From positions 434,001 through 498,000 of the forward strand of contig NZ_FNQZ01000001.1 in assembly GCF_900107545.1 (NCBI RefSeq): a stretch of DNA of 64,000 nt, given 5' to 3'. Within the stretch, counting starts at the first letter, position 1. Every line of letters starts with the position of its first letter. Both the position numbers and the translations under genes were made by a program. Of this stretch, positions 54,493 to 62,921 are shown in pieces. The DNA is from Pseudobutyrivibrio sp. ACV-2. GTDB lineage: Bacteria; Bacillota; Clostridia; Lachnospirales; Lachnospiraceae. The notes under the pieces were generated by a model that saw only the letters and a program-made list of their open reading frames with translations, ran no database searches and had not been told where the DNA came from.

Positions 54493-55425
54493 TTACTCTG
54501 TAAAGAGTGGTGTAGAATAATATCTGTCACCTGAATCTGGGAGAAGTGCTACGATAGTCTTTCCCTTATTCTCTGGCTTCTTTGCAAGCTCAATAGCTCC
54601 ATGAAGAGCCGCGCCTGAAGAAATACCAACTGAGATACCCTCTTTCTTTGCAAGAAGCTTTGCAGCCTCAAATGCATCCGCTGACTCAGCAGTAAAGATT
54701 TCATCATAAATCTTTGTGTTAAGAACATCTGGTACAAATCCAGCACCAATACCCTGAATCTTGTGAGCACCTGCACGGCCTTCTGAAAGTACTGGTGAAT
54801 CCTTTGGCTCTAAAGCAACAACCTTTACATCAGGATTCTGGCTCTTTAAGTACTCACCAACACCTGTAACAGTTCCGCCTGTACCTACACCAGCGATGAA
54901 AATATCTACCTTTCCATCTGTATCCTTCCAGATTTCAGGACCTGTTGTTGAACGATGTGCAGCAGAGTTTGCTGGGTTTACGAACTGACCTGGAATGAAG
55001 CTTCCCTCGATTTCAGCTGCAAGCTCCTCAGCCTTTGCAATAGCACCCTTCATACCCTTAGCGCCTTCTGTAAGAACGATTTCAGCGCCATATGCCTTAA
55101 GGATATTTCTACGCTCTACTGACATTGTCTCTGGCATTGTAAGGATTGCTCTGTATCCCTTTGCTGCAGCGATTGCAGCAAGACCGATACCAGTATTTCC
55201 AGATGTAGGCTCGATAATAACTGAACCTTCCTTTAAAAGACCTTTCTCTTCAGCATCCTCAATCATAGCAAGTGCTACTCTATCCTTTACTGATCCTGCT
55301 GGATTGAAGTACTCAAGCTTTACAAGAACCGTAGCCTCAAGGCCAAGCTCCTTTTCAATATTTGTTACCTCAACAAGTGGTGTGTTTCCAATAAGCTCTG
55401 ATGCGCTCTTATAAATGTTTGCCAT
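54493..55425 (-). CDS. cysK: Cysteine synthase A (O-acetylserine sulfhydrylase)
   Basis: PLP enzyme that makes cysteine from O-acetylserine and sulfide; 310 residues from the ATG at 55425, with GGAGG 8 bases upstream. The PLP lysine is Lys47 in NPAGSVKDR. The substrate loop [12 protein letters not shown] and the PLP phosphate loop [11 protein letters not shown] are present, and [11 protein letters not shown] lies near the C-terminus. It follows metY after 48 bases with no hairpin between them, so the two likely share the metY promoter and leader. Confidence 0.95.
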
Positions 55426-55473
55426 TGCATTATCCTCCGTAACCATTAAATTCTATCTATTACTATATAACTA

Positions 55474-56811
55474 TTAAACACTGGCTGCAAAGCCTTTTTC
55501 TGTATTCTGAACATCCTGAATATGTTCTTCATCAATTGCTGCGAAGCCTCTCTCAAGATCTTCGATGATATCGTCGATGTGCTCTGTACCAATTGAAAGT
55601 CTGATTGTAGACTGGGTAATTCCCTGATCTAAAAGTTCTTCCTCTGTAAGCTGTGAATGAGTTGTTGTCGCTGGGTGAATTACAAGGCTCTTTACATCTG
55701 CTACATTTGCAAGGATTGAGAAAATCTGAAGATTGTCAATAAACTTAAATGCCTCTTCCTTGCCACCTTTAATTTCAAATGTAAAGATGCTACCGCCATC
55801 CTTAGGGAAATATTTCTTGTAAAGCTCGTGATCTGGATGTTCCTCAAGTGATGGATGATTTACCTTGGCAACCTTTGGGTGATTCTTAAGGAACTCAACA
55901 ACCTTCGTAGTATTTTCAGCATGTCTATCAAGACGAAGTGGAAGTGTCTCGATACCCTGAAGAAGTAAGAATGCATTGAATGGTGAAATTGTAGCACCTG
56001 TATCACGAAGAAGAATTGCTCTGATGTATGTAACAAATGCTGCTGGTGCAGTTGCATCTGCAAATGAGATACCATGGTAGCTTGGGTTTGGCTCTGCGAT
56101 AGCAGGGAACTTTCCGCTCTTCTTCCAATCATAAGTACCAGCCTCAACGATTACACCACCAAGTGTAGTTCCGTGTCCACCGAAGAACTTTGTAGCTGAA
56201 TGAACCACGATGTCTGCACCGTGCTCGATTGGGCGAACCCAGTAAGAAGCACCAAATGTGTTGTCAACTACAAGTGGTAAATCATGACGATGAGCGATTT
56301 CTGCAAGTGCATCGATATCAGGGATATCTGAGTTTGGATTTCCAAGTGTCTCAATGTAGATTGCCTTTGTATCCTCTTTGATTGCATCCTCAACTTCCTT
56401 TAAGTTATGAGCATCTACGAATGTAGCTGTCACTCCGTACTGTGGAAGTGTATGAGCAAGTAAGTTGTAGCTACCTCCGTAGATTGTCTTTTGAGCTACA
56501 ATGTGTCCGCCGCCAGCTGCTAAAGCTTCGATTGTGTATGTGATAGCTGCTGCTCCAGATGCAACTGCAAGGGCTGCTGAACCACCTTCAAGTGCTGCTA
56601 CTCTTTGTTCTAAAACACCCTGTGTAGAATTTGTAAGTCTACCGTAAATATTTCCTGCATCTGCAAGACCAAACCTGTCAGCCGCATGCTGTGAATCTCT
56701 AAATACATACGATGTAGTCTGGTAAATAGGTACTGCTCTTGCATCTGATGCTGGGTCTGGGTTTTCCTGTCCTACGTGAAGTGCTAATGTTTCAAATCTA
56801 TAATTACTCAT
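55474..56811 (-). CDS. metY: O-acetylhomoserine sulfhydrylase (homocysteine synthase)
   Basis: Gamma-family PLP enzyme that makes homocysteine from O-acetylhomoserine and sulfide, feeding MetH. It has 445 residues, the length typical of MetY rather than MetB/MetC (about 380). Landmarks are SGAAAITYTIEALAAGGGHIVA, the VDNTFGASY segment and the PLP lysine Lys208 in HSATKFFGGHGTT. The start is fixed by AAAGGAG. It has a leader of about 175 bases carrying a cysteine-rich small open frame (56876-56959). Confidence 0.94.
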   Translation of the reverse strand: MSNYRFETLALHVGQENPDPASDARAVPIYQTTSYVFRDSQHAADRFGLADAGNIYGRLTNSTQGVLEQRVAALEGGSAALAVASGAAAITYTIEALAAGGGHIVAQKTIYGGSYNLLAHTLPQYGVTATFVDAHNLKEVEDAIKEDTKAIYIETLGNPNSDIPDIDALAEIAHRHDLPLVVDNTFGASYWVRPIEHGADIVVHSATKFFGGHGTTLGGVIVEAGTYDWKKSGKFPAIAEPNPSYHGISFADATAPAAFVTYIRAILLRDTGATISPFNAFLLLQGIETLPLRLDRHAENTTKVVEFLKNHPKVAKVNHPSLEEHPDHELYKKYFPKDGGSIFTFEIKGGKEEAFKFIDNLQIFSILANVADVKSLVIHPATTTHSQLTEEELLDQGITQSTIRLSIGTEHIDDIIEDLERGFAAIDEEHIQDVQNTEKGFAASV

Positions 56812-56875
56812 AATCTTTTCTCCTTTTCTAATTGAATTATTTATATAATCTCTCTTTTTATTCTAAAAATTTAAT

Positions 56876-56959
56876 CTAACAACATCGCTCGCAGTAACAA
56901 CACTGCATTCGTTCAATCCTAAAATTATGTCTGACAAAATCAATTAATAATTGCTTCAT
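56876..56959 (-). CDS. Cysteine-rich leader peptide ahead of metY-cysK (predicted)
   Basis: Small open frame of 27 codons plus stop inside the predicted metY transcript leader, 64 bases before metY. It starts with ATG at 56959 and ends MQCCYCERCC-stop, with five cysteines among the last eight residues; the rest is basic (several Arg). The upstream AAGGCAGG is a modest ribosome site. The cysteine codons include a short hairpin (GCAGT-GTTGTT-ACTGC). By analogy with cysteine-attenuation uORFs known in Actinobacteria, ribosome stalling at the Cys run could couple metY-cysK expression to Cys-tRNA supply. Translation is not proven. Confidence 0.6.
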   Translation of the reverse strand: MKQLLIDFVRHNFRIERMQCCYCERCC

Positions 56960-56995
56960 TTGTACTGCCTGCCTTTCTTGTTTGTTGATGAGATT

Positions 56996-57024
56996 ATAAT
57001 AAACGTTATTACCTACTAGGTCAA
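56996..57024 (-). promoter_or_regulatory. metY-cysK promoter
   Basis: Minus strand: -35 TTGACC (57019-57024), 17-base spacer, -10 TATTAT (56996-57001); an alternative -10 TATAAT lies at 56993-56998. The leader from here to metY is about 175 bases. Confidence 0.65.
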
Positions 57025-57030
57025 TAGGTT
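57012..57030. promoter_or_regulatory. ACCYA-N9-TRGGT operator over the metY -35 box
   Basis: On the minus strand ACCTATTGACCTAGTAGGT, an inverted repeat with arms ACCTA/TAGGT enclosing the -35 hexamer. The same design is found at metQ and iscS. It resembles sites of Rrf2-family (CymR/IscR) repressors by position, which is inference. Confidence 0.55.
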
Positions 57031-57047
57031 TTACAATTAGAAAAAAT

Positions 57048-57084
57048 TATAGCTGGTTATCAAACCAGTTGATAGCCAGCTATA
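57048..57084 (-). terminator. nifU terminator, abutting the metY promoter
   Basis: TAGCTGG-TATCAA / TTGATA-CCAGCTA stem followed on the minus strand by TAATTTTTTC. It ends the iscS-nifU transcript. Its inner repeat (TATCAA-N5-TTGATA, 57058-57074) is shared with the metQ upstream region and may double as a LysR-type binding site. Confidence 0.75.
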
Positions 57085-57094
57085 TAGTCATTCC

Positions 57095-61961: not shown

Positions 61962-62852
61962 TTACTCGAAAGGAACTACTGCCCCATCGTAAGTATCTGT
62001 AATATATTTCTTTACGTCATCTGACTTAAGAACATCTACAAGAACCTTAATGCCATCGTTGTTTTCATTTCCTTCTGCTACTGCAATAATGTTAACGTAT
62101 GTCTTTGCAGCTTCCGAATCTGATGCCTCGTAAGCGATTGAATCCTTTGCTACAGAAAAGCCTGCTTCAAGGGCGTAGTTACCATTTAATACTACATAGG
62201 CAACCTCATCCTTAACACGTGCAACCTGAGCTGCTTCAAGCTCCTGAATTTCAATATTCTTTGGATTATCAACAATATCCTTGATTGTAGCCTTTAAGCC
62301 CACACCATCCTTTAGTGTAAGAAGTCCATTGTCCTGAAGAAGAAGTAAAGCTCTTGCTTCGTTTGTAGTATCGTTTGGAACTGCGATAACATCACCCTCT
62401 GAAACATCATCGAGTGTAGCCTTTGTTCCTGGGTAAATACCAAATGGCTCATAGTGAATATCGCCTGCATCTACAAGATGTGTTCCCTGCTCCTCATTGA
62501 AGCTGTCAAGATATGGAACATGCTGGAAGTAGTTTGCATCAAACTCACCTGACTCTACTACAAGGTTTGGCTGAACATAATCATCAAAAACTGTGACATC
62601 TAACTTATAGCCCTTTTCCTCAAGTAAAGGTGCCGCATACTCTAAAATCTCTGAATGAGGTGTAGCAGATGCTGCAACCTTAATAGTCTTAAGCTCTGCT
62701 GGAGCTGCCTCTGTAGCTTCAGTAGCTTCGCTGCTCTCTTCCTGTGTATTTTCTGCAGTACTTGTAGCTGCACTGTCAGATGAACCGCAACCTGTAAGTG
62801 CTCCAAGTACAAATGTTGTTCCTAAAATGCTTGCTAAAATTTTCTTTGTCAT
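61962..62852 (-). CDS. metQ: Methionine ABC transporter substrate-binding lipoprotein MetQ
   Basis: NlpA/MetQ lipoprotein of 296 residues. The signal peptide ends in LTGC (Cys22), followed by a Ser/Thr/Glu-rich linker. Core motifs are IKVAASATPHSEILEYAAPLL, FDANYFQHVPYLDSFN, VAVPNDTTNEARALLLLQDNGL and the C-terminal VLVDVLKSDDVKKYI. It binds methionine and hands it to MetI. It is separated from metI by 212 bases with a terminator and has its own promoter. Confidence 0.95.
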   Translation of the reverse strand: MTKKILASILGTTFVLGALTGCGSSDSAATSTAENTQEESSEATEATEAAPAELKTIKVAASATPHSEILEYAAPLLEEKGYKLDVTVFDDYVQPNLVVESGEFDANYFQHVPYLDSFNEEQGTHLVDAGDIHYEPFGIYPGTKATLDDVSEGDVIAVPNDTTNEARALLLLQDNGLLTLKDGVGLKATIKDIVDNPKNIEIQELEAAQVARVKDEVAYVVLNGNYALEAGFSVAKDSIAYEASDSEAAKTYVNIIAVAEGNENNDGIKVLVDVLKSDDVKKYITDTYDGAVVPFE

Positions 62853-62886: not shown

Positions 62887-62915
62887 GTTATAATCCTTAT
62901 TACCCTACAGGTCAA
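62887..62915 (-). promoter_or_regulatory. metQ promoter
   Basis: Minus strand: -35 TTGACC (62910-62915), 17-base spacer, -10 TATAAC (62887-62892). The leader to metQ is short and has no small open frame like that of metY. Confidence 0.7.
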
Positions 62916-62921
62916 TGGGTT
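62903..62921. promoter_or_regulatory. ACCYA-N9-WRGGT operator over the metQ -35 box
   Basis: Minus strand ACCCATTGACCTGTAGGGT, arms ACCC/GGGT around the -35 box, in the same position as the metY and iscS sites. Confidence 0.55.

Follow-up and report, generated by a model that had tools for sequence, protein, structure and literature searches.

Ahead of the genes metY and cysK of Pseudobutyrivibrio sp. ACV-2 lies a very short open reading frame (ORF) that ends in a run of cysteine codons, and the question that this locus raises is whether the ORF regulates the two genes, which signal it would read, and how the reading would be passed on to metY. We have addressed this question in the window, i.e. 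the whole stretch of 64,000 nucleotides that has been analysed, and in related loci from the genus, the taxonomic family and the class. The first-pass annotation had described a 27-residue ORF with a Cys-rich end, an extreme Cys density and metY-cysK downstream, and all three descriptions agree with our findings: the ORF is present (Table 1), with five Cys among its final eight residues; it is alone among the 1486 window ORFs of 10-60 amino acids in having at least five Cys in the last eight residues, a density that is reached by none of the 41894 small ORFs (0/41894) of 20 dinucleotide-shuffled windows; and metY and cysK follow on the same strand, both above the cut-offs of their families.

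Promoter, leader ORF, metY and cysK succeed one another on the minus strand of the window: a short ORF that appears to be translatable, with a predicted ribosome site of its own, is placed between a promoter and a biosynthetic gene, and the codons of the relevant amino acid, cysteine, are both enriched and conserved. By chance, 2.0 promoters of this kind are expected in the region, and the promoter is therefore supported by where it is located and by being conserved in the genus. A search of the organism's own genome for a second copy of the peptide has returned a weak match (E 0.33). The reading that we favour, and consider reasonably probable, is that of a regulatory leader ORF (uORF), where ribosome stalling couples the expression of metY-cysK to the supply of sulfur amino acids through Cys-tRNA.

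Table 1. Positions of the leader ORF, its neighbouring elements and the downstream genes in the window.
Feature	Position	Strand	Remark
Leader ORF, 27 codons and stop, MKQLLIDFVRHNFRIERMQCCYCERCC	56959..56876	minus	
CGA-AUG (Arg17-Met18), constant core of the family	56906..56911	minus	
Cys-rich tail, codons 20-27, CCYCERCC	56879..56902	minus	Tail Cys-rich across genus members that keep the ORF
Shine-Dalgarno-like AAAGGCAGG upstream of the leader ORF	56968..56976	minus	Similar in the genus
GCAGT-GTTGTT-ACTGC hairpin	56906..56891	minus	Five-pair stem not conserved
Sigma-70-like promoter, TTGACC-17 nt-TATTAT	57024..56996	minus	
Palindromic operator ACCTATTGACCTAGTAGGTAAT, overlapping the -35 box	57008..57029	minus	
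metY Shine-Dalgarno AAAAGGAG	56820..56827	minus	
metY, O-acetylhomoserine sulfhydrylase	56811..55474	minus	TIGR01326, above curated cut-off
cysK, cysteine synthase A	55446..54493	minus	TIGR01139, above curated cut-off

A wider leader family in Clostridia, with R-x-N-[FY]-R-x-G-R-M at its centre, takes in the window ORF as one of its divergent members. The family is large and apparently undescribed: searches of an open-licence library have returned no such metY leader family in Clostridia. The most constant part of the family is R-M, written CGA-AUG, and R-x-N-[FY]-R-x-G stands ahead of it in many members, this full core being the one encountered most often. Six members, including the window peptide, have no match in NCBIfam or Pfam, and nothing has matched the family as searched in Rfam, Pfam and NCBIfam.

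A peptide search of 250 genomes of the taxonomic family, where 35 gave matches at E <= 1 (G000, G153 and G156 were followed, and G064, among the matches, is a real leader), was replaced with a survey anchored on metY. The gene has been found in 159 of 200 family genomes, and the survey sample comprises 130 metY upstream regions (30 loci and 100 stretches, two of them shortened by contig ends). Among the family genomes, locus L193 of G173 agrees with a named Lachnospiraceae contig (L261) in all of 3027 bases, and L196 of G224 has 95.7% identity to another (L242), in keeping with the Lachnospiraceae named in the first-pass annotation. A Cys-rich small ORF, defined as three Cys in ten residues, occurs in 31/130 regions, against 10 in antisense and 2-9 in 20 shuffles, and a small ORF with CGA-AUG in frame, irrespective of Cys, occurs in 36/130, against 2 in antisense and a mean of 4.4 (range 0-9) in 30 shuffles, and some of these 36 resemble chance; in the same regions, AUG is preceded by one of the remaining Arg codons in 22 cases altogether.

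The searches with peptide patterns, which fixed part of the peptide, have been conducted at several levels of stringency. With every Arg codon allowed, a loose core pattern has 29 matches in 27 of 397 family genomes, 23 of which carry CGA-AUG and are located in leaders; because its reversed control gives 21 among the matches listed, the loose pattern alone is unspecific, and six matches (L175, L177, L182, L198, L200 and L201) were judged from their context to be chance. A tighter pattern, likewise open to any Arg codon, has 26 matches in 24 of 391 genomes of the class, and its reversed control shows none among the matches listed. With CGA fixed, the scan of named genomes has returned at least 120 stretches; among the 80 named matches listed, most are from Oscillospiraceae, Ruminococcaceae, Lachnospiraceae and other Clostridia, and there are also an Erysipelatoclostridium, a Treponema bin and one chance match in a Brocadiales bin.

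The core matches that were examined in their loci number 168 (129, and 39 from 40 further loci; not all are independent, and L235 was excluded from the counts as a chance match). In 136 of the 168, the gene that follows is metY, and 5 are cut off. Ten proteins, drawn from 19 other core matches of the 129, were tested and comprise seven NlpA/MetQ lipoproteins, one MetN-like protein, one protein like nitrogenase component 1 and one ABC permease. The family suggests that many metY leaders and some metQ leaders in Clostridia may hide an unrecognised regulatory ORF. At locus L186 (G004:C1), the same kind of leader precedes the nitrogenase-component-1-like gene, which matches Oxidored_nitro in Pfam and is NifE-like in NCBIfam, below the cut-offs; its product might act in sulfur salvage, as an enzyme like methylthio-alkane reductase. 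A lipoprotein located behind the leader of another locus (L267:3-1652, minus strand) combines family 3 solute-binding and NlpA domains in one chain.

The position of the Cys codons relative to R-M has been compared in 100 distinct peptides with core and tail: 56 of them have a Cys codon directly after R-M and 15 have a stop there, Cys is found among the first eight residues in 75 of the 85 tails and is missing from the first eight in 10, and tail positions 2-8 hold 93 Cys in 402 residues, as compared with 18 +/- 4 in nucleotide shuffles (29 at the highest, in 200 shuffles). In 130 of 151 distinct leaders, a set that includes the 40 further loci and 23 that were hand-chosen from the survey, Cys is located at most three residues before or at most eight after R-M. 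The Cys codons are under selection, and a minority of members does without them; with 15/100 peptides stopping after R-M and 10/85 tails having no Cys among their first eight residues, these codons cannot be the whole story. The cysteine-sensing reading of the first-pass annotation stands insofar as it fits the conservation of the ORF and the Cys enrichment of the family; its emphasis, however, has to move, since it is R-M (CGA-AUG), and not the Cys run, that varies least in the wider family, and some members are Cys-free.

The comparison of the leaders has revealed two architectures through which a leader ORF could act on metY. In the first, which occurs in many members, there is complementarity between the N-F-R-F-G codons (AATTTCCGTTTCGG) and the metY ribosome site (CGAAAGGAAAT), and between GAATGTG and a CACATTC-like stretch. 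The duplex of the leader core with its own metY ribosome-site region has a mean of -11.5 kcal/mol, against -9.65 kcal/mol with other loci (sd 0.28, n=53), and this advantage of the own pair is reached in 0/10000 permutations (n=53); because the loci are related, their independence is overstated by the tests, and the own partner ranks on average at no better than 0.39 (chance 0.5), i.e. the signal comes from part of the loci. Synonymous recoding of the core also weakens the pairing (n=68, p=0.001; real codons at z < -1 in 28 and at z > 1 in 9), and the best duplex takes in at least two bases of the ribosome site in 48/68. In 12 hand-picked loci, a helix of 11 pairs is formed in 90.9% of cells, a percentage that is biased upward because the loci were picked from the better-pairing ones; both-sided changes occur in 2 pairs, and 25/500 shuffles reach that.

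In the second architecture, CTCCCGGGC or a similar stretch is located about 5 nt after CGAATG, with its complement about 100 nt further on (204 in one case), and an intrinsic terminator is built on the complement of this CTCCCGGGC-type anti-terminator arm. A strict script has found the terminator architecture in 9 of 153 loci, the U run being misplaced in L049, and a wider definition of the arm has found it in 19 of the 151 distinct leaders. The two groups of leaders differ in the side of R-M on which Cys is located: Cys at most three residues before R-M (e.g. CCRM, RCGRM) is seen in 16/19 terminator leaders and in 13/132 others (p = 3e-11), while Cys right after R-M is seen in 3/19 and 83/132, respectively (p = 1e-4). 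The three terminator leaders with Cys right after R-M (L211, L287 and L295) are contrary to the scheme and belong to the wider definition of the arm; the narrower definition gives 0/9. The side of the Cys codons thus differs with the architecture, as it should if it is important where the ribosome stalls.

In the mechanism that we propose, a ribosome would translate the short leader peptide and, when charged tRNA-Cys is scarce, would stall where Cys codons flank R-M (CGA-AUG). In many relatives, a ribosome that is stalled after R-M would sit on the N-F-R codons, which can otherwise pair with the metY ribosome site, and metY would be translated; in the terminator architecture, one that is stalled before R-M would not occupy the anti-terminator arm, and transcription would continue. 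When cysteine is plentiful, the ribosome would pass and expression would be lowered; in both architectures, expression would be higher when cysteine is short. Sensing of Cys-tRNA is favoured mainly because the placement of Cys tracks the architecture of the RNA, an argument from position, and the family of tiny genes probably lets the cell sense a shortage of cysteine during translation.

The core itself could instead be what stalls the ribosome: as an arrest peptide that senses a ligand or a state, the nascent R-x-N-[FY]-R-x-G-R-M would respond to a sulfur metabolite (e.g. Met, SAM, Cys or O-acetylhomoserine) by stalling it at the codon that follows Met, with the Cys codons acting only as modulators. 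The codon usage of the core is in keeping with this idea, six codons being used at Arg1 and six at Arg2, but the core residues were fixed by the search pattern, and their conservation is partly explained by the pairing with the ribosome site, by which they are also constrained. The peptides that stop exactly after R-M, i.e. 15 of the 100 distinct members, speak for arrest, and so does the constancy of CGA-AUG, which is present in 26/26 matches of the tighter pattern, as would suit a programmed slow step (among the Arg codons of 45 uncurated window ORFs with 220 amino acids or more, CGA accounts for 5.3%); many metY leaders with CGA-AUG, however, lack the R-x-N-F-R part, and neither the strong enrichment of Cys around R-M nor its placement according to RNA architecture agrees with codons that only modulate. 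We consider arrest of this kind unlikely. A broader proposal, which we hold as a tentative one, combines the two: Clostridia-wide, metabolite-sensing arrest peptides with an obligate CGA codon for Arg, where the nascent chain, not the Cys codons alone, would read the status of sulfur amino acids, where the same core would drive either release of the ribosome site or anti-termination as the Cys codons move across R-M, and of which the window ORF would be a divergent member. The constant CGA-AUG, together with the switch in the side of Cys, could tell how leader peptides re-wire between translational and transcriptional control.

Returning to stalling at Cys codons, alternative RNA structures have been found in relatives and in one sub-clade of the genus, and none is predicted in the window. 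In the sub-clade (L004, L037, L038 and L039), the first codons of the ORF are fully paired to the metY ribosome site (probability 1.0), while the metY ribosome site of the window is mostly free (paired probability 0.19; 0.01-0.73 in its nearest relatives). The window leader folds no better than its shuffles (z -0.85; 42/200 shuffles as good), and no terminator-like site is found from the ORF to metY (56876 to 56811); Rho-dependent termination or transcript stability is possible as the output step of the window. The GCAGT/ACTGC hairpin that had been noticed over the Cys codons is present, but relatives, compared by eye, do not retain its five pairs, and the leader is unstructured overall; we have rejected it as a switch and as the regulatory structure, the candidate structures of relatives being the pairing with the metY ribosome site or the intrinsic terminator.

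Within the genus, the peptide search has returned matches at E <= 1 in 11 of 29 genomes, and metY has been found in 25 of the 29 by a metY search. The 260 nt ahead of metY were read by script, with the start recognised in 23 of 25 loci; with genome G273 counted through its leader locus L036, and L345 being unreadable, 24 loci are evaluable, and presence of the ORF was judged by CGA-AUG in frame. By this measure, 12/24 metY leaders keep the ORF with its Cys-rich end and 12/24 lack the whole ORF. A lack of conservation of the frame or of the Cys codons in relatives, which the first-pass annotation had named as what would count against its reading, is not observed: frame, position and Cys-rich end are kept in those 12. 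CGA-AUG is present in all leader ORFs of the genus, and it occupies codons 17-18 in the ten that were aligned; the leader peptides of eight genus relatives and of L004 were set beside that of the window, and the alignment of leader DNA, where the row of L036 is wrong owing to a contig end, was read by eye. The ORFs are 27-29 codons long, with a similar ribosome site upstream, and end in ERCC, CRCC, YYCC, CYCC, SRCC, RCCCR or RCSCCR; the variable parts are residues ~19-21 and the spacer to metY (29-64 nt). Where the ORF is missing (L325, L326, L333, L334, L336-L341, L343 and L344), the promoter and the operator, exact or near, are retained. In G156, a relative in another genus, MAKILIDFDRHNFRNGRMRCCCCCR is located just ahead of metY.

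The absence of the ORF from half of the evaluable leaders, the absence of a predicted switch from the window leader, and an operator core that is exact in 19/23 genus leaders could all be expected if the ORF no longer had a regulatory role in the genus and were the remnant of an attenuator, with control exerted by the operator at the promoter. The ORFs that are kept, however, conserve their length, ribosome site, CGA-AUG and Cys-rich tail beside a spacer that varies, which is not expected of a remnant, and we regard this explanation as quite improbable. The genus leaders with and without the ORF form a natural set for comparing the response of metY.

Sensing of metal or redox state by the Cys-rich nascent peptide, in place of cysteine supply, would have a precedent in the CruR uORF, which responds to copper via a CXXC motif (PMC9426467), and would suit the Cys clusters near the end and the iron-sulfur genes nifS-nifU directly upstream, but is most improbable, since the number and spacing of Cys vary freely, Cys occurs before or after R-M, and most of the genes under control belong to sulfur amino acid metabolism. 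A terminal Cys in so short a peptide, moreover, has not yet left the ribosome at the time of its addition.

Regulation of metY-cysK through Cys codons in a leader ORF has counterparts in several described systems. The polycysteine uORF of mycobacteria is presumably leaderless, its ORF starting at the 5' end of the transcript; here, the predicted -10 box and the ORF start are 36 nt apart, with a ribosome site in the interval, and the window leader does not appear to be leaderless. Canestrari et al. 2020 reportedly described cysteine-responsive polycysteine uORFs. Two papers that cite polycysteine uORFs refer to them as cysteine-responsive (PMC13236596, PMC9094748). For the cys operons of actinobacteria (Mycobacterium, P. 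acnes) and for cbs of B. longum, PMC1262725 presents leader peptides with a Cys run near the stop and no conserved terminator. The window leader resembles these in being a short ORF with Cys codons near the stop, just ahead of cysteine genes, in having no terminator and, likely, in sensing Cys-tRNA; it differs in phylum, in preceding metY, in being led by a ribosome site, and in its R-x-N-[FY]-R-x-G-R-M core, where CGA-AUG is constant; in addition, two output structures have been mapped in its relatives.

In Rhodobacterales, cysS is preceded by uORFC-8-2, an attenuator that contains tandem Cys codons (PMC8632094). Tandem Cys codons in a leader ORF are shared with the present family, and so is an intrinsic terminator in the terminator architecture of relatives; the class, the gene and the sequence are different, and the window has no terminator of that kind. 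In translational attenuation of the ermC type, a stall in the leader ORF frees the downstream ribosome site. The principle is given in PMC13236596; in many relatives, the leader ORF can likewise pair with the downstream ribosome site, which a stall would free, but the signal here would be Cys supply and not an antibiotic, and the pairing is not predicted in the window. The LEU element of actinobacterial leuA (PMC1262725) has a codon run in the leader ORF and a pairing with the ribosome site of the main gene; a run of regulatory codons and such a pairing are found here too, while the LEU element is concerned with Leu, forms a pseudoknot and belongs to a different phylum.

With regard to clostridia, PMC2940859 reports that a Cys T-box and S-box control cysteine and methionine genes of C. 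perfringens at the RNA level, and that other mechanisms of clostridial cysteine-gene control may exist. Control of cysteine and methionine genes at the RNA level would be common to these and to the present family, where the sensor would instead be the translation of an ORF. A T-box or SAM riboswitch has been rejected as an explanation of the locus: at the gathering score, the window has no such Rfam match (three tRNAs only), and 16 loci (the window and 15 relatives, several with the leader) have no T-box or S-box at E up to 1, the only 7 Rfam matches being microRNA families below the gathering score, all at L052:3080-3153. The family is a concrete and widespread candidate for cysteine-gene control in clostridia without Cys T-boxes.

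The region around the metY promoter holds additional elements. The operator over the -35 box of metY is, we assume, of the Rrf2/CymR/IscR type. A second copy of the operator and promoter (ACCCATTGACCTGTAGGGTAAT, 62899-62920, minus strand) is located just before metQ (61962..62852), whose leader, read by eye in the window, contains no such leader ORF; the operator pattern, which was drawn from the metY and metQ sites, matches nowhere else in the window, where chance would give 0.02. The two copies suggest an Rrf2-type regulator that is common to metY and metQ. Upstream of the metY promoter (57030-57090, minus strand), there is an inverted repeat TAGCTGGCTATCAA..TTGATAACCAGCTATA, a type that recurs in most of the genus members seen and that may represent a nifU terminator or an activator box. 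In the metY upstream regions of other genera (L048, L052, L054, L064, L066 and L071), a box of the TTATCAC..ATAA type, identified by eye, occupies the place of the ACCTATTGAC operator of other loci, which indicates that the promoter control of metY may have been swapped.
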